From Nitrospirota bacterium (GTDB lineage: Bacteria > Nitrospirota > Nitrospiria > JACQBW01), in contig JACQBY010000134.1 of assembly GCA_016201875.1 (NCBI GenBank), positions 1 to 37,219 of the forward strand: a DNA stretch of 37,219 bases. The letters run 5' to 3'. The notes under the pieces are model-generated. The model worked only from the letters and a program-made list of their open reading frames with translations, was not told the origin of the DNA and made no database searches. Position numbers and translations under genes: made by a program. Positions 1 through 35,606 of the stretch are shown piece after piece; the stretch's first letter is position 1, and each line of letters begins with the position of its first letter.

Positions 1-1061
1 AGATCGACCAGCATGACATGTTCCGCCCGTTCTTTGGGATCTGCCAGAAGTTTCTTTTCAAGCATCCGGTCTTCTTCTTCGGTCGCCCCCCTTTTATAGG
101 TCCCCGCGATGGGGCGGGTCTGGACTTTTCCGCCGACCGACCGGACCAGCAGTTCCGGAGAAGAGCCTGCGATCTTTAAATCTTTTAACTTCAGATAAAA
201 CATATAAGGGGAAGGATTGACCTGCCTTAACGAACGGTATAGATCAAACGGATCAACCGAAAGAGTCTTTGAAATTCTCTGGGAAATCTGAACCTGGAAA
301 ATATCCCCGGTCTTGATAAATCCTTTGGCGGCCTGGACACTCTTTAAGAATTCTTCTTTGGGGGTTTCGTAAACCAGTTTTGCGGACAAACCGCGAAGTG
401 CGGAAGACTCTTTTTTTCGAGTTTTTTTGATCTTCAGAGGTTTTTGCATGAGCTGAATAATCTGATCGATCTTTTTGACCGCCCGGTCGTATGCTTTTTT
501 GGGGGCGGACAACCCGTTCCGCACTCCGTTTGATTCAACCCGGGCATTTGAAATCACCTTGATCCGGTGATTGATATGGTCAAAGACCAAAAGGGTGTCG
601 GTGATCAGAAAAAAAAGGTCGGGGACTTTAAGCGGATCGGGAAGCCGGTCGGGGACTTTTTCCATAAAACGGACGGCGTCGTAGCTCATATATCCCACCG
701 CCCCTCCATGGAACGGGGGTATTCCTTCGGTCACCGCCGGCTTAAAAGAGGCCATGATCTCCTGCAATTTCTTAAGGGGATCGGAGACATTCCGGAGAAC
801 CTCTTTTTTCCCTTCGCGGATGAGGGTCACGGTCTTTCCCTTGCTCTGGAAGACCAGAAGAGGGCGGCTCCCCATAAAGGAGTAGCGGCCGATCTTTTCT
901 CCCTGTTCAACGCTTTCGAGAAGATAGGAGTAATCTCCCTGGTCGATTTTTAAAAAAGCGGTGACCGGGGTTTCAAAATCGGCGAGGATCTCTCTGTAAA
1001 CGGGGATTAAATTCCCCTCTTTTGCTTTTTGCTCGAATTCTTTAAAAGCGGGATAATACAC
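1..1061 (-). CDS. trpE: Anthranilate synthase component I, N-terminal part (cut by window edge)
   Basis: Catalyses, with the glutamine amidotransferase TrpG, chorismate to anthranilate, the first step of tryptophan synthesis. My reading of the minus strand gives about 353 residues with the TrpE N-terminal signature (NLIPVYREILADFETPVTAF, then SYLLESVEQGEKIGRYSFMG), the start of the chorismate-binding domain (GDIFQVQISQR) and RPIAGTYKRG followed by KERAEHVMLVDL at the edge; the rest lies outside the window. The start is taken as GTG at 1061: an in-frame TAG lies at 1070-1068, followed only by ATT ATT GTG. No Shine-Dalgarno sequence is visible because repeat F2 abuts the start. Two F1 elements (505-528 and 382-405) add eight codons each in the poorly conserved linker between the two domains. 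PabB is the main alternative, but the N-terminal sequence favours TrpE. Confidence 0.9.
   Translation of the reverse strand, partial: MYYPAFKEFEQKAKEGNLIPVYREILADFETPVTAFLKIDQGDYSYLLESVEQGEKIGRYSFMGSRPLLVFQSKGKTVTLIREGKKEVLRNVSDPLKKLQEIMASFKPAVTEGIPPFHGGAVGYMSYDAVRFMEKVPDRLPDPLKVPDLFFLITDTLLVFDHINHRIKVISNARVESNGVRNGLSAPKKAYDRAVKKIDQIIQLMQKPLKIKKTRKKESSALRGLSAKLVYETPKEEFLKSVQAAKGFIKTGDIFQVQISQRISKTLSVDPFDLYRSLRQVNPSPYMFYLKLKDLKIAGSSPELLVRSVGGKVQTRPIAGTYKRGATEEEDRMLEKKLLADPKERAEHVMLVD
382..405. repeat. F1 element, rearranged L+R' form, inside trpE
   Basis: 24 bp: L (GCGGACAAACCG) followed by the inverse complement of R (CGAAGTGCGGAA), so the second half is inverted relative to the common L+R form. 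It encodes SALRGLSA-like residues in the trpE linker. Removing exactly these 24 bp leaves the reading frame joined as KKESKLVYETP. Confidence 0.8.
505..528 (+). repeat. F1 element L+R inside trpE
   Basis: GCGGACAACCCG followed by TTCCGCACTCCG (one change from the common R). On the coding strand it reads GVRNGLSA, in frame, in the interdomain linker of trpE. Excision on paper gives ESNAPKKAYDRAV. Confidence 0.85.
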
Positions 1062-1223: not shown

Positions 1224-2696
1224 TCAAGAGGAAAATCGCAAATACCAGGAGGGGCTTTGAAAGACAAGCGTTCCTTCCGGTTTTTGGATCGCTTGCGCGG
1301 AACGGGTTGTCCGCGACAGAGTCATCCGGTAATCGACGGTAATGGCAGCTCCTTCCCGTTTGATTTGCTGAAACTCCATGTTGATTTCGCGGGAATCGCG
1401 GAACATCTCCTGGAATCTCTCCCTCGCGGACAAACCGTTCCGCACTTCGCCGGGAGGAGACAACCGGATCTCTTTTTCTATGGCGCCAAGGTCCTTTTGT
1501 TCGACGTTTCTTTTAAACTCCATGAGAAACGCTTCCAATTCATGGTCATCAAGTATTAGCGGAGGTCCGACCTGGGGAGGAGAGTGAGCCTCTTTTTCTT
1601 TTTTCAAAAATACAATTTCAATTGGCAGACAACCCGTTCTGCACTTCGGCGGAACATCGGTATTTATCAGAGCTGACGGTTCATGCGAAGTGCGGAGCGG
1701 GTTGTCCGCAACCTCTTGAATGACCGGCTGTTTATGAGATTGAACCCTTTCTATGCGAGGGGGATCAAATATTTTTCCGATCAAAAATAAAACAACCATA
1801 AAGGCCAGGCCGAAAGCCAGGATCATCCTCCTTTCACCAGACAAAGTGCGTCCGCACGGTTTGTCCGCTCGAACTTGATCCAGTAAGGTTTGGACATCAG
1901 GGAAACGGCGCGACGGCTCCTTTTCAACTAATTTTCGGATGACCGATTGAAAGTACGGAGGGATTTCAGGAGGAAAGGTTAATGAAAACGGATGCGTCTC
2001 GTAAACGATCTTCCCCCAGACTACGGCTTTTCCCATCCCATTAAAAAAACTCTTCCCGTGGATAAGGGTATAAAAAATCATTCCGAGCGAATATAAATCA
2101 CTCCTCCCGTCCGGCGGTTCCCCCCTGACCTGTTCCGGGGAGATATACTCGAGCGTTCCGAGCGGACCGGTCAGAGGAGCGGTGATTTGAAGGTCTCCTT
2201 GAATGGAGGCAATCCCAAAATCAGAGAGATAAGGCTTGCCGGCATGAGAGATCAAAATGTTTTCAGGTTTTAAATCAAGATGGAAAATATTTTTTTGATG
2301 GAGATACGCCAGAGCGGAGGAGATCTCCAGAAAAAGAGAGAGAAACCGTTCAAAAGAGGAGGGACCATTTGCAATGAGCCACTCTTTTAAATTCACCCCT
2401 TCGATATAGTCCATGACAATGGCGGACAAACCGTTCCGCACTTCGCCATACCCATCAATCCCCCGGGACGAAATCGGTTGGAAAGCGATAAACGAAACGA
2501 TATGGGGGTGCTTTAAAAGGGATAGGCTGAGCGCTTCTTTTTGAATCAGTTTTTGATAGCGGGGGTCCGCCGCAAGCTGAGGATGGAGTTTTTTGACGGC
2601 GAGCCAGCGGTTGGCGCCGGGGGACCAGGCTTTGTAGACAATCCCCATGCCGCCCCTGCCGATTTCTTCGAATTGTTCGAGTGGCCCGAAATCCAT
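1224..2696 (-). CDS. Membrane Ser/Thr protein kinase (PknB-like) with six F1 insertions
   Basis: 490 residues. The cytoplasmic kinase domain (about 9-275) shows the glycine loop GRGGMGIVYKA (13-23), AVKK with the ATP-binding lysine (33-36), the catalytic loop HLDLKPEN (139-146; Leu replaces the usual Arg of HRD), DFGIA (159-163) and the activation segment end GTLEYISPEQVRG. One membrane helix follows at about 292-310, and the C-terminal part (about 311-490) is predicted outside the membrane; it ends in a small domain of unknown role. ATG start 9 bp after tadC, so it probably belongs to the tad transcript and may tune piliation or envelope functions; that link is inference. F1 elements lie at 2422, 1842, 1686, 1625, 1426 and 1273-1314; the first is in the beta4-beta5 loop just before the hinge strand IVMDYIEG. 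All preserve the frame. Confidence 0.9.
   Translation of the reverse strand: MDFGPLEQFEEIGRGGMGIVYKAWSPGANRWLAVKKLHPQLAADPRYQKLIQKEALSLSLLKHPHIVSFIAFQPISSRGIDGYGEVRNGLSAIVMDYIEGVNLKEWLIANGPSSFERFLSLFLEISSALAYLHQKNIFHLDLKPENILISHAGKPYLSDFGIASIQGDLQITAPLTGPLGTLEYISPEQVRGEPPDGRSDLYSLGMIFYTLIHGKSFFNGMGKAVVWGKIVYETHPFSLTFPPEIPPYFQSVIRKLVEKEPSRRFPDVQTLLDQVRADKPCGRTLSGERRMILAFGLAFMVVLFLIGKIFDPPRIERVQSHKQPVIQEVADNPLRTSHEPSALINTDVPPKCRTGCLPIEIVFLKKEKEAHSPPQVGPPLILDDHELEAFLMEFKRNVEQKDLGAIEKEIRLSPPGEVRNGLSARERFQEMFRDSREINMEFQQIKREGAAITVDYRMTLSRTTRSAQAIQKPEGTLVFQSPSWYLRFSS
1273..1314 (-). repeat. F1 core with extended flank (F1x) at the kinase C-terminus
   Basis: The core GCGGAACGGGTTGTCCGC (1297-1314) is followed by a flank that runs through TTGGATCGCTTGCGC to CTTCCGG. 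The same flank recurs beside the F1 array at 3492-3526 with about three mismatches over 33 bp, showing a longer version of the element. Here it encodes RTTRSAQAIQKPEG near the kinase C-terminus. Confidence 0.65.
1426..1449 (+). repeat. F1 element L+R in the kinase extracytoplasmic region
   Basis: Exact canonical pair GCGGACAAACCG + TTCCGCACTTCG. It codes EVRNGLSA on the minus strand. Paper excision joins SPPG to RERFQEM in frame. Confidence 0.9.
1625..1648 (+). repeat. F1 element, A-variant (GCAGA/TCTGC stem), in kinase
   Basis: GCAGACAACCCG + TTCTGCACTTCG. Both stem arms carry the change G to A and C to T, so the hairpin is kept. It is read in a different frame from the EVRNGLSA copies (KCRTGCLP). 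Excision restores NTDVPPIEIVFLKKE. Confidence 0.85.
1686..1709 (-). repeat. F1 element in inverse orientation, in kinase
   Basis: R'+L' on the plus strand (CGAAGTGCGGAG then CGGGTTGTCCGC). The coding strand therefore reads L+R as ADNPLRTS. Excision of these 24 bp joins EV to HEPS in frame. Confidence 0.85.
1842..1868 (-). repeat. Degenerate F1 element in kinase
   Basis: 27 bp: L' (CGGTTTGTCCGC, 1857-1868) preceded by a damaged R' with six extra bases (CAAAGTGCG then TCCGCA). It encodes ADKPCGRTL between the kinase domain and the membrane helix. The length is still a multiple of three. Confidence 0.6.
2422..2445 (+). repeat. F1 element L+R inside the kinase catalytic domain
   Basis: Exact canonical 24 bp, coding EVRNGLSA at residues 85-92. 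It sits in the beta4-beta5 turn. Excision gives GIDGYGIVMDYIEG, which matches the usual run into a kinase hinge strand. Confidence 0.9.
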
Positions 2697-2705
2697 CCGG
2701 TTCCG

Positions 2706-3590
2706 TTAAAAGAGCTGTAAAAAGCGTAAAATCAACGGTTCAAAAATCAATATAAAGACGGCAGGGAAAATACACCCTAAAAGGGGGATCAGCATTTTAA
2801 CCGGCATCTGGTAGGCCCGTTTTTCGGCCAGCTGGAACCTTTTGGTTTTGATTTCCTCCGAGAGCTGGCGAAGCGCCGCCGAGAGGGGGCTTCCGATCTG
2901 ATCGGTTTGAATAAAAACCAGAATCAGCGAATGGACTTCCGGAAGGTTGATCCGGTTTGAGAACTCCCGCCAGGCGTCTGACCGGCTTTTCCCCATCCGG
3001 ACCTGCCGGACCATCGTCTCCAGTTCTTCTTTGAGAGGGCCCGGTTTAGAATTTTCCATGACTCTGGCCAATACCGTTAAATAATCGAGCCCCGCTTCAA
3101 CTCCTAACGTCATCAAATCGAGATAATAAGAGAGGTCCTTCACCATATTTTTTTGTCTCGCCTCGACGGCGCTCAACAAGAAAAGGAGGGGAAAAACCAG
3201 ACCGATGATAAAAAAGAGACTCAAAAGGAGAAGCATGAAACTAAAGACGGGCCATCGGTTTTTAAAAAAAAGGATTCCGGCCAGCGCCAGTATTATCGCC
3301 GCACCGCCGGATAAGAGCTGGAGGGAGATAAATCTCCCAGGGGCCATCGTCCAGCGGGCGGTAATCATTTTCTGTTGAAGATAAGCGAGGTAAGGTGACA
3401 ATCGAACGCGGACAAACCGCGAAGTGTAGAACGGTTTGTCCGCCGAAGTGCGGACGCGGACAACCCGTTCCGCACTTCGCGGTTTGTCCGCCCGTTCCGC
3501 GCAAGCGATCCAAAGGCCGGAAGGTCGGAACAAATGATGAGCCGCCCAGGCGGCCGAAATGAAAACTAAAAGATTGATGAAGAGAGTCAA
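2706..3590 (-). CDS. tadC: Tad pilus assembly inner-membrane protein TadC
   Basis: 294 residues of the T2SS_F/GspF type, the platform partner of TadB in Flp/Tad pilus assembly. It has an N-terminal membrane segment, two more helices (about 92-145), the conserved cytoplasmic domain (DLSYYLDLMTLGVEAGLDYL, then GSPLSAALRQLSEEIKTKR) and a C-terminal helix PVKMLIPLLGCIFPAVFILI. The start is TTG at 3590: an in-frame TAA lies just upstream and a GAGGA lies 8 bases before it. The 84-bp F1 array plus flank at 3408-3526 encodes a basic insert (ADKPRSAERVVRVRTSADKP and more) between the first helix and the rest. It is followed 9 bp later by the kinase. No TadA/CpaF ATPase is in the window. Confidence 0.88.
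   Translation of the reverse strand: MTLFINLLVFISAAWAAHHLFRPSGLWIACAERADKPRSAERVVRVRTSADKPFYTSRFVRVRLSPYLAYLQQKMITARWTMAPGRFISLQLLSGGAAIILALAGILFFKNRWPVFSFMLLLLSLFFIIGLVFPLLFLLSAVEARQKNMVKDLSYYLDLMTLGVEAGLDYLTVLARVMENSKPGPLKEELETMVRQVRMGKSRSDAWREFSNRINLPEVHSLILVFIQTDQIGSPLSAALRQLSEEIKTKRFQLAEKRAYQMPVKMLIPLLGCIFPAVFILIFEPLILRFLQLF
3408..3526. repeat. F1 array of seven 12-bp half units plus extended flank, inside tadC
   Basis: Consecutive 12-mers in exact register: L 3408, R' 3420 (CGAAGTGTAGAA), L' 3432, R' 3444, L 3456, R 3468, L' 3480. These are followed by CCGTTCCGCGCAAGCGATCC and the F1x flank ending CCGGAAGG at about 3522. The units 3456-3479 (a full L+R) split an inverse element R'...L' (3444-3455 and 3480-3491) exactly in the middle. 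The 84 bp of modules equal 28 codons, and the tadC frame is intact throughout. Confidence 0.88.
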
Positions 3591-4349: not shown

Positions 4350-5300
4350 TTAAACCTCGCCGCTCTCCACGATTTTTTTAATCAGCCAGAAGCCGGAAAT
4401 CTCCAGCAAAAAAATCGCCAGCAACCCCGCTCCGCCGGCGGGGGTCGTCCAGAAAGGGGTCATTAAAGCCGGGTCGATTAAAAAAAGGATTGCGCCAAGA
4501 ATTAACGGAAGAATTCCGACGACCAACCCCTGCATCTTCCCCTGAGCCGTTAAAGCATTGATCTTCCCCTTGAGACGGGTTCTCTCTTCGATCGTCTCCT
4601 CCAGACGTTCAAGGACCGGGGTCAACGATCCCCCTGCATCGTTGGATAAAATCATCGCAGAGACCATCAGGCTCAGGTCTTCTAACCCGAGCCGGTGATC
4701 GAGATATTTAAGGCTCTCTTCAAAACTCTCCCCCATTTTTATCTTTTTTAAAACAAGACCGAGTTCATGGGAAATCGGAGGCGGAATTTCTCTCACCGCC
4801 TGCTTGATCGCCTCTGAAAGGCTCAACCCCGCACGAAGAGATCCGGACATCATCTTGAGAAGGTCGGGAATCTGCCGTTCGATCTTCTCAAGCCTTTTCC
4901 GGGAGAAAAACCGGATCGCTAATTTTGGAAGATGATAGCCTGCCGCGCCAAAGAGGAGAACCGCCAGAACGAACCCGCTCCAGGAGTCATCCATTCCGAC
5001 AACCGATCCGATGAGAATAAAAATACAAGTTGAAAGGAGATGAATCATTCCGGCCTGACGGGGGGTCAAAAAGAGGAATTGTTCGTCGAGCGAAGAGAGG
5101 GTTTCCCTGATGACTTTTGCCCTGTACCGGCGGTAACCCGGAAGGAGGCTGTTTCCTATCGAATAGATTCCGATTGAAACCCCGGAGAAAACCGCCAGAG
5201 AAATGGCGGCGGACAACCCGTTCCGCACTTCGGCAGACAACCCGTTCTGCACTTCGTTGGGAACAATGCCATAAAGGATGAAGTCAGCGAAGAGCGTCAT
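4350..5300 (-). CDS. tadB: Tad pilus assembly inner-membrane protein TadB
   Basis: 316 residues, T2SS_F/GspF type. After an N-terminal helix come two helices (about 85-125), the cytoplasmic domain RQIPDLLKMMSGSLRAGLSLSEAI, GLVLKKIKMGESFEESL, then SNDAGGSLTPVLERL, and two C-terminal helices. TadB and TadC form the inner-membrane platform of the Flp pilus machine. The ATG at 5300 overlaps the stop of the upstream lipoprotein gene by four bases (ATGA), indicating translational coupling. Two F1 elements in tandem add EVQNGLSA and EVRNGLSA right after the first ten or so residues. Confidence 0.88.
   Translation of the reverse strand: MTLFADFILYGIVPNEVQNGLSAEVRNGLSAAISLAVFSGVSIGIYSIGNSLLPGYRRYRAKVIRETLSSLDEQFLFLTPRQAGMIHLLSTCIFILIGSVVGMDDSWSGFVLAVLLFGAAGYHLPKLAIRFFSRKRLEKIERQIPDLLKMMSGSLRAGLSLSEAIKQAVREIPPPISHELGLVLKKIKMGESFEESLKYLDHRLGLEDLSLMVSAMILSNDAGGSLTPVLERLEETIEERTRLKGKINALTAQGKMQGLVVGILPLILGAILFLIDPALMTPFWTTPAGGAGLLAIFLLEISGFWLIKKIVESGEV
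5209..5256 (+). repeat. Two F1 elements in direct tandem inside tadB
   Basis: 5209-5232 is the GCGGA/TCCGC type (L+R) and 5233-5256 is the GCAGA/TCTGC type. They are adjacent with no base between, 48 bp in all, coding EVQNGLSAEVRNGLSA. The side-by-side pair shows the compensated stem change directly. Confidence 0.92.
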
Positions 5301-5638
5301 TTAGCCGTAGAGGTTTTTTTCTTTTTCTTTTTGGTATCGGTTTTTTTTGTGGTTGTTTTTTTAGGGGCCGGTTTTTTCTTAAGGGTCTCGATCTCTTTTT
5401 TCAGAGATTTATTTTCCTCTTCGAGCGCCGTCATTTTTTGCTTCGCCTGCTCGCTTTCTTTTCTTAACAGCTCCAGATCAGTCTGCACCCCTTTGTTCTC
5501 TTCCGACATCTTTTCAAATTGCTGTTTCAGCTTTACATTTTCTTCTTTTAATTTTTTTGCTTCACATCCCGACAACATCGGGATCAATACCAATAAAAAT
5601 AAAACACCCAACAGTGGTTTAAATGATTTAAATCTCAT
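5297..5638 (-). CDS. Small coiled-coil lipoprotein
   Basis: 113 residues. Signal peptide with the lipobox LSGC (Cys about 25), then a long heptad-rich coiled coil (KKLKEENVKLKQQFEKMSEE and on to about residue 85) and a Lys/Thr-rich tail (KKTTTKKTDTKKKKKK). The fold recalls small murein-type lipoproteins, but I do not recognise the family. The stop overlaps the tadB start by four bases, so it is the first gene of the tadB cluster in this window; it may act as an envelope anchor for the pilus, which is inference. GAAAGGACTGAGG precedes the ATG. Confidence 0.75.
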   Translation of the reverse strand: MRFKSFKPLLGVLFLLVLIPMLSGCEAKKLKEENVKLKQQFEKMSEENKGVQTDLELLRKESEQAKQKMTALEEENKSLKKEIETLKKKPAPKKTTTKKTDTKKKKKKTSTAK

Positions 5639-5714
5639 CCTCAGTCCTTTCTTGGAATTTAATCAAAGTTTTTTAGATTTTTGCATAAAACCAAACTTTT
5701 ATCAATACATCCTC

Positions 5715-7810: not shown

Positions 7811-9402
7811 TTCTGGTTTACGGCATCCCTGGCGGACAAACCGTTCCGCACTTCGCGGGTTGTCCGCTTCTGCACTCCGTCTAAAAAAAGCGGCGATTCA
7901 TATCTCACCGGAAGGGTCAACACAACTTTCGTTCCCTTCCCCTCTATTATGTTCAGGGGCCTGTTCGCTGCGCTCTCATTGCCCCCGAACCCCTCGCTCG
8001 AACTGGCAAAGCCAGATCCTCGCTCTATCTCCGAGCTGATCTCAATTTTACCATGGTGTTCTTCGATGATCCTTTTGGTCAATGCAAGGCCGAGGCCGAT
8101 CCCGAGCTGTTTTGTCGTAAAATAAGGCTGAAAAACTTTTTTTAAATCGTCGGGGCTGATCCCCGGCCCGTTATCGATAATTTCGAGAACCACAAAAGAA
8201 GGGTCCGGTCGGAGCGCCCGGATCGCCAGTTTTCCGCCGGTCGGCATCGCCTGAATCCCGTTTGCGACGATATTCATCAGGCAGGTTTTGATCCTTTCGC
8301 TATCTCCTTCGATCAGGGGGATCTCTCCGGGCACATATTCGATTTCAACCCCCTGTTCGATCGCTTTTTGATTCGCCAGACTGATCACCTCTTTTAATAA
8401 GAGGTTCAGGTTCATCCATTCTATTTGAAGCCTTAACGGCCGTCCATACTTTAAAATATCCTCCACCATATTGTTCAGCCGGAAAATTTCCGATTTAATG
8501 CTCGACATCAGGTCGGACATTCTCTCCTTTTCGTCGGGCGATGCACGACCCGCTTTTTCTTTAAGATGATCGATACTCAGGGAGATGAAATTGAGCGGGT
8601 TTCTGATTTCATGGGCGATCCCCGAAGCGAGCTGGCCGAGCGCGGTAAAATGTTCGGTCTCCCGGAGCCTCTCTTCGAGCGCTTTATTCTGCCTTAGTTT
8701 TTCAACCATTTCGTTAAAGCTTTCGGTCAGCTCGTTGATTTCATCGTTTCCTTTATGGACCGGTATCGTCTGGCTCAAATCTCCGCTGGCGACTTTTTTG
8801 GCGGCCGCCATGATCTGGTAAATGGGCCGGGTATACCGCGAGGAGAGAAAGATCGAAACGATAATCCCGAGAGAAAAGACTACTAATGTGGCGGCCAGGC
8901 GGTTCAGGTAATGCGATTCGATCAGTTTTTCATAATCGTCAAAAATCATGCTGATATGGGCATACCCCAGCTGTTCTCCCTCGACGACGATGGGGACAAG
9001 GAGATTGTAGGCTTTCTGGGTAGGCGACGGGAGCTGATCCCCTAATTTTGCGGTGATCAGCAGATCTTTTCTTTTAGGATCGAGTCTGGCTCCCACCCGA
9101 TGGGGATTTGAGCTGGCGATCACCTCTTTTTCATTGCTGACGATCGATATCTCTTTCACCCCCCTCGTTTCAAGCCTCTTCACATAATCCTGAAGTCGTT
9201 TTTCGGTCGTTCGTTCGGGGCTGGTCAGCTCTTCAACGCTCACCGAAATCGCGTTGGATAACTCATTGATATTCTGCTCCATTTCTTGTACCAGGGCTTT
9301 TTCTGTCCGGGCATAAAGATAAAAAGAGACGCCGAGGGATAGAAACGACAGAAGGAGCATGATCAGGACGAGTTTTGCGGTCAGAGTCAGTCTGATCTTC
9401 AA
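7807..9402 (-). CDS. Membrane sensor histidine kinase, partner of the sigma-54 regulator
   Basis: 531 residues from the TTG at 9402, which overlaps the stop of the preceding gene. A longer open frame to 9672 merely overlaps that gene. Helix 1 (about 8-30), a periplasmic sensor region (31-165), helix 2 (168-187), HAMP (RYTRPIYQIMAAAKKVASGD), the H-box GIAHEIRNPL with His264, N-box NIVANGIQAM, DNGPGIS, the F-box FQPYFTTK and GIGLGLAL. It autophosphorylates and passes phosphate to the regulator. A 27-residue in-frame insert from repeat F2 lies in the ATPase domain between EISSEIE and GKGTKVVLTLP. The C-terminus carries a 48-bp F1 module run before RDAVNQK. Folding of this mosaic is untested, but all kinase boxes are intact. 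Confidence 0.9.
   Translation of the reverse strand: MKIRLTLTAKLVLIMLLLSFLSLGVSFYLYARTEKALVQEMEQNINELSNAISVSVEELTSPERTTEKRLQDYVKRLETRGVKEISIVSNEKEVIASSNPHRVGARLDPKRKDLLITAKLGDQLPSPTQKAYNLLVPIVVEGEQLGYAHISMIFDDYEKLIESHYLNRLAATLVVFSLGIIVSIFLSSRYTRPIYQIMAAAKKVASGDLSQTIPVHKGNDEINELTESFNEMVEKLRQNKALEERLRETEHFTALGQLASGIAHEIRNPLNFISLSIDHLKEKAGRASPDEKERMSDLMSSIKSEIFRLNNMVEDILKYGRPLRLQIEWMNLNLLLKEVISLANQKAIEQGVEIEYVPGEIPLIEGDSERIKTCLMNIVANGIQAMPTGGKLAIRALRPDPSFVVLEIIDNGPGISPDDLKKVFQPYFTTKQLGIGLGLALTKRIIEEHHGKIEISSEIERGSGFASSSEGFGGNESAANRPLNIIEGKGTKVVLTLPVRYESPLFLDGVQKRTTREVRNGLSARDAVNQK
7832..7879. repeat. F1 run L R L' R at the sensor kinase C-terminus
   Basis: Four 12-mers in exact register: L 7832, R 7844, L' 7856 (CGGGTTGTCCGC), R variant 7868 (TTCTGCACTCCG). 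48 bp, 16 codons. Excision joins SPLFLD to RDAVNQK and the stop without a frame change. Confidence 0.88.
7946..8028. repeat. F2 repeat copy 3, inserted in frame in the sensor kinase
   Basis: About 80 bp: TTCAGGGGCC, a variable middle, GCCCCCGAA, and the hairpin CTGGCAAAGCCAG. On the coding strand it adds 27 codons. ATAGAG occurs at both junctions, which may be a 6-bp target duplication; however a similar ATAGAG also borders copy 2 at 6243, so it may instead be part of the element. Confidence 0.85.
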
Positions 9403-10040
9403 TAGATTTTTTCCAACGAAGTGCGGACGAAGTGCGGAACGATTTTTCCCGGCCTTAATATTTTTATTTCTTCGCCGGTCACATCGACCACCGTGGAGGG
9501 TTCGGATTCTAAAGCTCCGCCATCCAGGATTAAATCGACCTGTTTTCCAAAAACCTTTTCGGCTTCCCGGGCATTTCTGCAGGGAAATCCGGCTGACAGG
9601 TTGGCGCTGGTAGCCGTCACCGGGAAGCCGGCAAAAGATAAGAGCCGCCGGACCATTGCCGAACCGGGGCACCGGATTCCGATTTTTCCGCTGTGGGCGG
9701 TTAACCGGGTAGAAATCTTTTCAGAAGCCTCAAAAACAAAAGTAACAGGGCCGGGCCAGTACTGTTTGATCAGCTTTGCCGCGGCGGGGGAAACATTTTT
9801 AACCAGAGGGAAGATATCCTCAGGCTTTTCGACCAGGATGAGAACCGGCTTTTGGCTCTCCCTCTTTTTAATCTCGAACAGTTTTTCAATCGCCGCTTCA
9901 TGGTAGATGCCGGCGCCGATGCCGTAGAGGGTGTCGGTCGGGTAGATGATGATTTTCCCCTCGCCAAGGAGGCCGGCTCCCTTTTTCAGCGCAGGATCAG
10001 GATCATTAAAATCTATTTTAACGATTTTTGTTTTTGTCAT
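9399..10040 (-). CDS. tsaC: L-threonylcarbamoyladenylate synthase (YrdC/Sua5 type)
   Basis: 213 residues with a YrdC fold. It makes threonylcarbamoyl-AMP from threonine, bicarbonate and ATP for the t6A37 modification of tRNAs reading ANN codons. Visible motifs: KIIIYPTDTLYGIGAG, KKRESQKPVLILV, YWPGPVTFVF, IGIRCPG and PVTATSANLSAG. The C-terminal Sua5 domain is absent, so it is the short TsaC type. The start ATG at 10040 lies 23 bases inside purE. Its C-terminus (VPHFVRTS before LEKIY) is made of F1 half units; removing 24 bp (9417-9440) gives RPGKILEKIY. Confidence 0.9.
   Translation of the reverse strand: MTKTKIVKIDFNDPDPALKKGAGLLGEGKIIIYPTDTLYGIGAGIYHEAAIEKLFEIKKRESQKPVLILVEKPEDIFPLVKNVSPAAAKLIKQYWPGPVTFVFEASEKISTRLTAHSGKIGIRCPGSAMVRRLLSFAGFPVTATSANLSAGFPCRNAREAEKVFGKQVDLILDGGALESEPSTVVDVTGEEIKILRPGKIVPHFVRTSLEKIY
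9417..9440. repeat. F1 remnant, two R' halves, at the tsaC C-terminus
   Basis: CGAAGTGCGGA (11 bp) followed directly by CGAAGTGCGGAA (12 bp) and one more base, 24 bp in all. It codes VPHFVRTS. No L half is present. It sits just before the end of tsaC and the ribosome-binding area of the sensor kinase gene. Confidence 0.7.
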
Positions 10041-14508: not shown

Positions 14509-14540
14509 AAAACTGGTTTCCCGCTTTCGCGGGAATGACT
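14509..14540. repeat. Fragment of repeat F3
   Basis: Contains TTCCCGCTTTCGCGGGAATGAC, the right inner hairpin of F3, with a few bases of the spacer before it. The rest of F3 is missing. It lies in the 169-bp gap between the Big_2/CARDB gene and the HAD gene; the AT-rich part nearer 14386-14450 probably holds the promoter of the former. Confidence 0.7.
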
Positions 14541-15437: not shown

Positions 15438-16958
15438 TCAATCCAGCAGAATCTCGGAGCCGGTTCCCCTCCAGATCGCCAACCGCCATTCCAGGGCAAT
15501 CTGTTGTTCCAGATAATCCGCCGGGTTATAATCATCGGTCAGAACATGTCCCGAATCCTCTCTTAAATGGACTTCTCCGGCAAAAAGTTTTCCGGAGGAA
15601 GCAATCAAAGGGCCCAGAGGCCGGTTCGAAGCCAGCATGATATAATTGGTGAAATTATCTTTCAAAGAAACCGTTAAAACAGCTCTGTGGGAAAAATTTT
15701 GCTGGAGCGTTTTATAGATCGATTGGGTGAATTCCGAACCCTCGCCGGTAAAAAGTCCGATGGTGTTCATCACCAGAATGCCGTCGTCCGTCAAACTGTT
15801 CCTCAGTTGTTCAAAACACTCCCGGCTCAGCAAATAAAAAGGAGAAGATTCCCCCGCGAAAACGTCCAGAACAATGTAGTCATATTTTTTTCTGTTCCCA
15901 TTTAAAAAATGGCGGGCATCTTCGAGAATGAGATTGAACCGTTCGGGATGAAATTCAAAAAATTTTTTAGCGACCATGGGCATTCGGGGATCGATCTCGA
16001 CAATATCAATCAAGTCCCCGGATTTAAACTCCGATTCCGGAATGACCCCTCCTCCCAGCCCGATGACGGCTCCTTTGAAAACCTTCTTCAGGGATTTCTC
16101 CCGGCAGGCTTTAAGAACTTCTTCTATCATCCCGGTGTACGGGGCCAGGGATTGATGGAGGCCTGTTTGATAAGCCGTCTGGATCGCTCCGTCGACCATC
16201 AACATATGTATTCCCGCGTTATCGAGAACCTTTAATTGGCCGTAATAACTTTCTGATTTAAAAATAATTTTTCCGGTTTGAGTTCTTTGAGAAAAATAAA
16301 TGATCAGGACTCCGCTGATGAAAATAACGGAAAGACAGGCCAGAGCCGGCTTCCAGTTTTTTGTTTTCACGAAATGAATGGCCGGGAAAATAGAGAGGGA
16401 GATAGAAATGACAAATAAAATATTTTTCAGCCCCAGATTGGGAATCAGCCAGAAACCCACCAATAAGGTTCCCATGATTCCGCCAAGGGTGGAAAGCGCG
16501 TATAAATTTCCGGCGATTTTACCTGCCCGATCAATTTCCCTGAGAGAAAGTTTTAAGGAAAACGGGGCCACCATTCCCAACAAGGTCAGGGGAACGGTAA
16601 AAAGGATAAAAGCGGTCGTCAGGCATCCCATCCTCGGTCCGAACGAAGTCATCGCGAGAGAAACCGGCTTTTGAATCAGCGGAATCATCATGACAAAAAT
16701 TCCCGAGACCAGGACCAGAAGATAAAAAAGATCCCGGTTTTGATAACGGTCCGAGAGAATGCCTCCGATCCAGTATCCCAGGGACAGCGAAATCAAAGTG
16801 ACCGTAATTAACGAGGTCCAGATAAATAAGGAGATTCCAAAATAGGGGCTCAGAATACGCGATCCCAGCACTTCAAGGACCAGCACGATCATCCCGCAAA
16901 TAAAGATGGTCAAGAGCAATAAAACAAAATCGGCGCGTTGTTGACTATTTTTTTTCAT
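15438..16958 (-). CDS. Membrane-fused spermidine-synthase-like protein
   Basis: 506 residues. N-terminal half (about 10-225) with seven or more membrane helices (LLLLTIFICGMIVLVLEVLG, GISLFIWTSLITVTLISLSL and others), C-terminal half (about 235-480) a Rossmann methyltransferase/aminopropyltransferase fold: AVIGLGGGVIPESEF, DIVEIDPRMPMVA and YDYIVLDVFAGESSPFYLLS. This is the fused-MFS/spermidine-synthase architecture. Whether it makes polyamines is uncertain: the family includes proteins with unknown substrates, and no speD or speA is nearby. ATG start at 16958; 38 bp follow the FG-GAP gene, so it may share its transcript. Confidence 0.85.
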   Translation of the reverse strand: MKKNSQQRADFVLLLLTIFICGMIVLVLEVLGSRILSPYFGISLFIWTSLITVTLISLSLGYWIGGILSDRYQNRDLFYLLVLVSGIFVMMIPLIQKPVSLAMTSFGPRMGCLTTAFILFTVPLTLLGMVAPFSLKLSLREIDRAGKIAGNLYALSTLGGIMGTLLVGFWLIPNLGLKNILFVISISLSIFPAIHFVKTKNWKPALACLSVIFISGVLIIYFSQRTQTGKIIFKSESYYGQLKVLDNAGIHMLMVDGAIQTAYQTGLHQSLAPYTGMIEEVLKACREKSLKKVFKGAVIGLGGGVIPESEFKSGDLIDIVEIDPRMPMVAKKFFEFHPERFNLILEDARHFLNGNRKKYDYIVLDVFAGESSPFYLLSRECFEQLRNSLTDDGILVMNTIGLFTGEGSEFTQSIYKTLQQNFSHRAVLTVSLKDNFTNYIMLASNRPLGPLIASSGKLFAGEVHLREDSGHVLTDDYNPADYLEQQIALEWRLAIWRGTGSEILLD

Positions 16959-27545: not shown

Positions 27546-28250
27546 TCATTTCGTAGTACATCGCGAACCGGTTCCCTGGGCCGTTCCGGAGGTTAACGTA
27601 AATCCATTATCCGGATCCCAGGTATAGGTGCCGGCGCAGGTGGTTGTCTGCGTCCCTCCCGGCACAATCTCTTGCCGGGTTTGAATAAAATTCCCCGCGG
27701 CCTGGCCGATTAAATTTCCTGTCGCATCGGTCATCGAGTTGACGCCGAATTTATTGTCGAAAATATAACCCGCCGCGGCCTGATTTTGATAAATCTGGGT
27801 TTGCAATTGATTCAGCCTGCTTGTTCCGGACGCAGTCGAATTCATCCGGGTCACCACCGATTGAAAACCGGCTATCCCTGAGGTGGTGGTTGCATCCAAC
27901 AGGCCGATCTGGCTAAATCCGGAAGGGAGATCCCTTCCGAACTGGGTATCCACCGTCGTTCCGGTAATCGACCGGGGAAGGACTGTTTCGGGATGAGGGT
28001 CGGTATTGGAGGACATCTGCGCCCCGTCCATTCCCCACGGACCCGGGTCCGCCGGATTCGACGGTCCCTGCTGTAGATGCATCTGGCTGGTCCTTGAAAC
28101 CGTTGCCGTATCCGCCGCATCTGCAGAAAAAGCCAGGCTCATGGAAAGAAGAATGGCGGAAAAGAGAACTTGGCAGACAACCCGTGCGGACAACCCGTTC
28201 CGCACTTCGTCTGCACTTCGCAATTTTTTAGTTTTTAGCAATTTTATCAT
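27546..28250 (-). CDS. Unrecognised secreted protein B, with nested F1 insert in its signal peptide
   Basis: 234 residues. The start of the signal peptide is MIKLLKTKKL; then 16 codons of F1 sequence (RSADEVRNGLSARVVC); then QVLFSAILLSMSLAFSADA. Without the insert it reads as a normal signal peptide. The mature part is Gly/Ser/Thr/Asn-rich with a Cys pair near the end (TTTCAGTYTWDPDNGFTL and GSRCTTK). No known family. Segment TRMNSTASGTSRLNQLQTQIY resembles one in secreted protein A, so the two may be distant relatives. ATG 28250 is directly abutted by repeat F2, so no native ribosome-binding site is visible; a GTG at 28280 within F2 is in frame (MQFTKAPEYK). Confidence 0.65.
   Translation of the reverse strand: MIKLLKTKKLRSADEVRNGLSARVVCQVLFSAILLSMSLAFSADAADTATVSRTSQMHLQQGPSNPADPGPWGMDGAQMSSNTDPHPETVLPRSITGTTVDTQFGRDLPSGFSQIGLLDATTTSGIAGFQSVVTRMNSTASGTSRLNQLQTQIYQNQAAAGYIFDNKFGVNSMTDATGNLIGQAAGNFIQTRQEIVPGGTQTTTCAGTYTWDPDNGFTLTSGTAQGTGSRCTTK
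28173..28220 (+). repeat. Nested F1: one 24-bp copy inserted in another
   Basis: Outer element of the GCAGA/TCTGC type, split after base 13: GCAGACAACCCGT (28173-28185) and TCTGCACTTCG (28210-28220). Between them sits a complete GCGGA/TCCGC element (28186-28209). Joining the two outer pieces restores exactly the variant seen at 1625 and 5233. Confidence 0.92.
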
Positions 28251-28327
28251 TTTATATTCAGGGGCCTTCGTAAACTGCACTCAATGCCCCCGAACCCCAT
28301 GTTCGGCCAGGCAAAGCCTGATCCTCG
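28251..28327. repeat. F2 repeat copy, abutting secreted protein B
   Basis: Identical to 1071-1147 except for one base. It ends one base before the ATG of protein B, just as copy 1 ends close to the trpE GTG. Confidence 0.88.
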
Positions 28328-28441
28328 CATTTTTTTATTTTAAAATCCCTTTAGGAGCAGGGGCAATCCCCACCAGGTTACCCCTGCTCCGGTTATTGTA
28401 CGGGCAAATTATGCCCCTTACAATGACCCTTTAACTCATCA
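28328..28441. other. Gap after moaA with two hairpins
   Basis: GGAGCAGGGG/CCCCTGCTCC (28354-28363 with 28381-28390) and ATTGTA.GGGCA/TGCCC..TACAAT (about 28395-28425). On the minus strand the first is followed by TAAAGGGATTTTAAAAT rather than a clean T-run. It may weakly terminate moaA, or be the remains of a small repeat. Confidence 0.45.
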
Positions 28442-29544: not shown

Positions 29545-29677
29545 GATGGTCTCGTACAAAGTCTGAAAAAGCGGTTTTCTGTCATTCCCGTGCAAACGGG
29601 AATCCAGTTTTTTCAAATAGTTATGTACTCCCTAGATTCCCGCTTTCGCGGGAATGACAACTTTTCACGAAACCATC
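29545..29677. repeat. F3 MITE-like repeat, copy 1
   Basis: 133 bp with terminal inverted repeats GATGGTCTCGTACAAAGT and its imperfect complement ending ACGAAACCATC. Inside, GTCATTCCCG...CGGGAATGAC forms a second inverted repeat, with small hairpins CCCGTGCAAACGGG and CCCGCTTTCGCGGG. No coding capacity. Confidence 0.85.
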
Positions 29678-35475: not shown

Positions 35476-35606
35476 GATGGTCTCGTAAAAAGTCTGAAAA
35501 AGCTGTTTTCTGTCATTCCCGTGTAAACGGGAATCCAGTTTTTTCCAGTAGTTATCTGCTCCCTAGATTCCCGCTTTCGCGGGAATGACGACTTCTTACG
35601 AAACCG
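35476..35606. repeat. F3 MITE-like repeat, copy 2
   Basis: 131 bp, about 90% alike to copy 1, with terminal repeats GATGGTCTCGTAAAAAGTC and GACTTCTTACGAAACC. Flanked by TATATATATACTT at 35463-35475 and again at 35613-35625, consistent with a target duplication or insertion in a TA microsatellite. Confidence 0.85.

Follow-up and report, generated by a model that had tools for sequence, protein, structure and literature searches.

The small dispersed repeats (SDRs) of Nostoc and its relatives are reportedly mobile-looking repeats of 21-27 nt that form a small hairpin with compensatory changes in its stem and occupy a defined insertion point in a short target. Copies of SDR1 and SDR4 are said to lie nested inside copies of themselves, and those who described the SDRs reportedly favoured RNA intermediates. 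Ever since these cyanobacterial repeats were described, it has been debated whether sequences of only 20-25 nt are able to move as units and which machinery would move them. According to a statement quoted in PMC4390886, SDR5 is inserted between bases 3 and 4 of HIP1. GTAG-23 of T. roseum is an example of a REP inserted in larger palindromes (PMC3733652), and the Rickettsia palindromic elements (RPE) measure ~100-150 bp (PMC2229807). In IS200/IS605, a target tetranucleotide flanks LE and RE has its own final tetranucleotide, and both are chosen by guides located 5' of the hairpins (PMC6006769).

We describe here a 24-bp repeat from a single draft MAG of an uncultured Nitrospirota bacterium (1.88 Mb, 200 contigs, 83% complete), of which the window, meaning the whole 37,219-nt stretch analysed, is contig 169. 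With up to 3 mismatches allowed, the unit was matched 11 times in the window against an expectation of 0.00, shuffles yielding none (Table 1). The block at 28173-28220 reads GCAGACAACCCGT / GCGGACAACCCGTTCCGCACTTCG / TCTGCACTTCG, or in half-unit terms A'(GCAGACAACCCGT) A(GCGGACAACCCGT) B(TCCGCACTTCG) B'(TCTGCACTTCG), in agreement with the initial annotation, which had described a 24-bp copy interrupted after its base 13 by another copy that is itself complete. Its statement that the outer halves join to the exact variant seen at 1625 and 5233 also held, with the joined sequence (GCAGACAACCCGTTCTGCACTTCG) matched at both positions and three further times elsewhere in the genome. Since A'B', of the GCAGA/TCTGC type, is that variant, and AB, of the GCGGA/TCCGC type, is the commonest form of the unit, the nest combines two different variants. 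The same annotation had named the unit's own loop as a target, and three further nests, one of them five deep, do identify the unit's own middle as one, but in the orientation CGAAGT...TCCGC the cut falls at the stem-loop junction, GCAGA^ACGGGTTG, rather than mid-loop.

The ORF that hosts this nest (27546-28280, minus strand) runs uninterrupted across the block, which is placed in the n-region of a signal-peptide-like N-terminus, ahead of the hydrophobic core. With the block removed, the protein would begin MIKLLKTKKLQ-VLFSAILLSMSLAFSADAADTATV, and the reconstructed empty site is that of an ordinary signal peptide. The proposed position of the pair within a signal-peptide-like region is upheld, but the accompanying gain of 16 codons is a prediction, because an in-frame TTG within the inner insert could serve as an alternative start. 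Two genomes of the same family, G001 and G002, were used as ortholog references, and both contain orthologs of the host gene that lack the block; at 57% and 47% protein identity, respectively, they are too diverged to yield the kind of empty site, resolved to the base, that the initial annotation had suggested seeking in relatives at 28173-28220. The G001 ortholog (L106 ~16190-16430, G001:C18) carries, joined in frame directly before its own signal-peptide core, a member of a different family of repeats (TCATTGCGAG...CGAAGCAATC). Repeats are thus tolerated at this junction in both lineages. Separately, an 87-nt dispersed repeat (TTCAGGGGCCTTCGTAAACTGCACTCAATGCCCCCGAACCCC...) occurs in the window at 1066-1152, 7941-8027, and 28246-28332, and the last of these overlaps the beginning of the gene that hosts the nest.

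Table 1. Copies of the 24-bp unit, related features, and the gene hosting the nested pair in the window
Feature	Position	Strand	Remarks
Second 24-bp form, A joined to inverted B (GCGGACAAACCGCGAAGTGCGGAA)	382..405	+	TrpE-like ORF
Single copy	505..528	+	within TrpE-like ORF
F2 long imperfect palindrome, apex	1290..1314	+	separate repeat family with the same 18-nt hairpin core, itself a target of the unit
Single copy	1426..1449	+	Ser/Thr kinase-like ORF
Single copy, outer-type variant	1625..1648	+	GCAGA/TCTGC
Single copy	1686..1709	-	
Single copy	2422..2445	+	Ser/Thr kinase-like ORF
Compound array, inverted and tandem copies	3408..3491	+	peels to three units in F2 hairpin apex
Tandem pair, not nested	5209..5256	+	two copies in TadB-like gene, 16 codons
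Copy with inverted half and degenerate half	7832..7879	+	A B a B'
Imbalanced array (2:1)	9417..9439	-	two B halves and a decayed A half
Host gene, predicted secreted protein	27546..28250	-	from ATG 28250; frame open upstream to GTG 28280; no Pfam match
Left half A' of outer copy, 13 nt (GCAGACAACCCGT)	28173..28185	+	same variant as 1625 and 5233
Complete inner copy (GCGGACAACCCGTTCCGCACTTCG)	28186..28209	+	24-mer hairpin GCGGA-(8)-TCCGC with ACTTCG tail
Right half B' of outer copy, 11 nt (TCTGCACTTCG)	28210..28220	+	

A single unit is predicted to fold into a 5-bp stem with an 8-nt loop, CGAAGT-GCGGA-ACGGGTTG-TCCGC. The two arms change together from GCGGA/TCCGC to GCAGA/TCTGC (pair 3-16: GC 8, AU 3, GU 1, other 1), the covariation being limited to this one pair. 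Folded as DNA, nests form one lengthening hairpin and tandem arrays do not, with a fold energy of -12.5 kcal/mol for the 48-bp nest as compared to -7.8 kcal/mol for a tandem pair, and -36.5 kcal/mol (z = -5.7) for a longer 5:5 array described below. The unit corresponds to 8 codons with zero stops across its six frames, a property shared by 30% of same-composition shuffles, which makes the unit permissive rather than remarkable in this respect.

The nested pair had been read initially as strong evidence for movement of the 24 bp as one piece, and this was borne out by comparisons of empty and filled sites. The PEP carboxylase (PEPC) of the MAG reads GNWDQEMPM[GGQTVPHF]ARIDIVPLFET where that of G001 reads GNWDQDFPM-ARIDIVPLFET, with the same gap in G002, and in SMC exactly eight residues, GGQTVPRF, are absent from both relatives. 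Units also lie in frame in conserved TrpE-like and PutA-like genes and in a gene resembling the formylglycine-generating enzyme (FGE), where the 5:5 array forms an insert of 40 residues at a TEAS/SDGCE junction relative to G001. Within the MAG itself, empty F2 palindromes (GCGGAACGATTTGTCCGC) and filled ones (GCGGAACGA, the unit, TTTGTCCGC) match base for base, with 14 F2 matches having an unfilled apex and four carrying the unit in the apex loop (window 1290-1314, 3491-3524; loci L206-L218). Similarly, CCCTCCC hairpins occur both empty (CCCTCCCTTGATGGGAGGG, four times) and filled (CCCTCCCTTGA, the unit, TGGGAGGG), and target duplication is absent from the pairs of both families. Because these pairs and the ortholog gaps define them, the ends of the unit are fixed to the base. 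We regard clean insertion of 24 bp, with the frame of host genes kept, as demonstrated at the level of sequence. At several loci (L006, L016, L018, L021, L001, L017), filled sites often show C at the position preceding the unit, in place of the A of the empty target (TTGC/TTGA, ACGC/ACGA), a hint that composites are copied or that an extra base is occasionally gained.

Across the whole MAG, which was covered through the loci recovered by search and a few stretches, the intact centre AB was matched 29 times at no more than 3 mismatches, and once outer shells are counted there are ~37 units. Three further nests of the form A^nB^n were found, a 2:2 nest on contig C90 and two on contig C69, one 2:2 (5610-5657) and one 5:5 (5214-5333, 120 bp), and all are 24n bp long and in frame. 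Together with the pair at 28173, this gives four such arrays (5:5, 2:2, 2:2, 2:2) in which the A and B half counts are equal. The two C69 nests, which share the one FGE-like ORF 276 bp apart with the same g at the junction (L002 1457-1576, 1853-1900), are the best single exhibit of the finding, and all levels of the 5:5 array are near identical. Tandem pairs occur at 5209-5256, in the PutA-like gene (L026), and on C90, where the array consists of one tandem copy and the 2:2 nest. Stepwise removal of intact units returns the A^nB^n nests and the tandem arrays to plain flanking sequence; the arrays with inverted halves (382, 3408, 7832) and the 2:1 remnant at 9417 are not simple nests. In all, ~11 of the ~37 units lie inside or abut another unit, as compared to 0.0075 expected under random landing, and we take the nesting of the unit in its own centre to be established from these arrays. 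A tandem pair altered by point changes, named in the initial annotation as the competing origin of the 28173 block, cannot yield A-A-B-B, an order that is the tandem duplication of no single segment, and is further contradicted by the 5:5 array.

Two side observations concern the irregular arrays. The second 24-bp form, with one inverted 12-nt half (TTCCGCACTTCG CGGKTTGTCCGC), recurs in the window at 382-405, 3468-3491, and 7844-7867, which suggests half-unit inversion or inverted nesting, and the imbalanced array at 9417-9439 has near-identical GGRAAAAATC on both flanks.

To characterise the insertion target, 18 independent sites were scored with the unit oriented CGAAGTGCGGAACGGGTTGTCCGC and compared with 2000 random control site sets. 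The 5' flank was defined by T(-5) in 12/18 sites, C(-4) in 16/18, C(-3) in 10/18, G(-2) in 10/18, and a purine(-1) in 16/18, giving TCCGR, and the 3' flank of the 18 sites had no shared bases. None of the 2000 control sets was as strong as the observed information content, so that a target rule can be considered established for these sites, and the target resembles the unit's own last five bases, TCCGC. At 28173, the inner insertion fits TCCGR in part, GCAGA^ having C(-4) and A(-1), and the outer insertion (AATTG^) is one of two sites that lack C(-4). Hairpin loops were considered as a general target and rejected; they hold for the F2 and CCC repeats, but the stems at coding sites are no better than background.

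Based on these data, we propose, with a probability of roughly 0.7, that we are dealing with an ultra-short mobile repeat of 24 bp, non-autonomous and active in the form of a single-stranded hairpin, that is copied 3' of TCCGR-like targets and targets itself. The unit would be copied directly 3' of a short target resembling its own last five bases, with no duplication of that target, and its own hairpin would be one of its favourite targets, entry past the 3' end of a resident unit producing a tandem and entry past the inner GCRGA arm producing a nest. At 28173, a GCAGA-type copy would have entered the predicted secreted-protein gene between the charged n-region and the hydrophobic core, and a GCGGA-type copy would then have entered the first, or alternatively the ready-made pair arrived together. 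The frame of the host gene would be preserved because the unit is 8 codons long and stop-free in all six frames. The single-stranded intermediate, the specificity by matching of end and target, and the order of outer before inner copy are what we infer from this arrangement. Counting against this explanation are that no helper was found, the missing C(-4) at the outer 28173 site, the tetranucleotide AAGT, whose pairing with the target in the manner of IS200/IS605 guides is not evident, the irregularity of some arrays, covariation in a single pair, and the origin of all data in a single draft MAG. In a more specific version, the stem arm of the 24-nt hairpin would pair with TCCGR in DNA that is single-stranded, and the hairpin, by spreading in this way and re-targeting itself, would give rise to A^nB^n nests and ever longer hairpins in coding genes. 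It would then be a self-targeting unit close to the minimum possible size whose mechanism is new, neither a cognate transposase nor a reverse transcriptase having been detected; we consider this version unlikely. By inspection, TCCG is complementary to bases of the stem arm GCGGA, and AAGT at the hairpin foot has no obvious pairing to CCGR.

The one-sided target, the resemblance of target and end, and the lack of duplication fit IS200/IS605 and also template switching through a match of 4-5 nt, and the engine would be either an HUH-type enzyme or template switching at about even odds. For replication template switching with no dedicated enzyme, a polymerase would stall at the hairpin and the nascent 3' end (TCCGR) would anneal to its match in another copy's end or right next to that copy, copy 24 nt, and return through the same 4-5-nt match. 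TCCG is indeed common to target and unit end, the hairpin is stall-prone, target-site duplication is lacking, self-insertions are in strong local excess, the levels of the 5:5 array are near identical, and neither RVT_1 nor a cognate transposase was detected. The self-nest site GCRGA^, however, has only C(-4), G(-2), and R(-1) of TCCGR, insertions at scattered, unlinked loci end exactly at 24 bp, keep the frame, and lack microdeletions, which is tidier than usual for microhomology products, and simple local slippage does not account for the 28173 nest because its two variants differ. Template switching seems to us a tentative possibility.

Mobilisation in trans by a resident Y1/HUH transposase, of the RAYT or IS200 type, is in our estimate unlikely. 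The MAG has six Y1_Tnp genes where G002 has none, and a one-sided target resembling the element's final bases, the lack of target-site duplication, and a hairpin with a 5' tail would all be expected from such an enzyme. Against this, the Y1 genes are not flanked by the unit, there is no GTAG/CGTC tag and no evident guide complementarity, and G001 has Y1 genes yet no unit. We rejected the unit as the cognate repeat of a resident RAYT, with no exact copy found on the contigs of the Y1_Tnp genes or in their inspected flanks, which have GGGGTCA-type ends. Palindromic repeats of the GTCATTCCCG...CGGGAATCCAG type at window 14509-14539, 29581-29611, and 35512-35542 are possibly REP-like repeats of these Y1 transposases. 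An RNA intermediate made by a resident reverse transcriptase was likewise rejected, as no RVT_1 match was found in the MAG (83% complete), G001, or G002. The exact unit had no match in 57 related genomes or in viral contigs, and its exact pattern had none in a collection of 84,980 species genomes that may omit the window's own genome. The 18-nt core pattern occurred in 96 unrelated contigs, which we attribute to chance because each has a single copy and none has the CGAAGT or CTTGC tail.

It is very improbable that A-A-B-B arrays arose with no mobile unit, each half (13 bp and 11 bp) having been duplicated in tandem independently of the other. The halves do lie head-to-tail and the 9417 array is imbalanced, but the half counts are equal in all four nests though the frame needs equality only modulo 3, the outer and inner halves at 28173 are matched variants as nesting predicts, and single 24-bp units are clean insertions elsewhere (PEPC, SMC). 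An assembly or binning artefact, to which a draft MAG of 200 contigs and 83% completeness is open, is hardly credible where 48 bp and 120 bp fit within short-read length, conserved ORFs are kept open by the arrays at several loci, and array lengths are pure 24n.

As read from the letters, then, the 24-bp repeat enters genes, other hairpins, and its own copies cleanly, up to five layers deep, and is among the smallest DNA units that bear every mark by which a mobile element is recognised in sequence. Its base-exact ends, a measurable one-sided target rule, and a five-fold nest that records repeated events lead to direct, testable predictions, and it illustrates how 8-codon inserts can come into conserved enzymes (PEPC, SMC) with the frame kept open.

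Among known systems, IS200/IS605 elements share with the unit a target on one end only, the lack of duplication, a hairpin, and terminal bases resembling the target, but the unit is only 24 bp long, with no internal transposase gene and no obvious guide pairing. MITEs differ in that no target duplication accompanies the empty and filled pairs of the unit. The RPE similarly enter conserved protein genes in frame and are kept in the product, but are far longer than the 24 bp found here (PMC2229807). REPs and REPINs with their RAYTs resemble it as short, non-autonomous hairpins with an unpaired 5' tail, sometimes within larger palindromes; the tail of the unit is CGAAGT in place of a GTAG or CGTC tag, it does not flank Y1 genes, and it is low in copy number, largely intragenic, and nested, in contrast to the inverted doublets of REPINs. 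The closest kind is the SDRs of Nostoc, which are reportedly likewise dispersed units of this size with a small hairpin, compensatory change, and self-nesting, here represented by ~37 units of 24 nt with a predicted 5-bp hairpin and change in one pair. The unit differs from SDRs in its sequence and host lineage, in its few copies, lying mostly in frame inside conserved genes, in its five-level nesting, in its one-sided TCCGR target resembling its own end, and in that no reverse transcriptase was detected, and is best seen as a variant of such minute mobile repeats, for which it adds evidence at the level of single bases on where the ends lie, what is targeted, and how deep the nesting goes.
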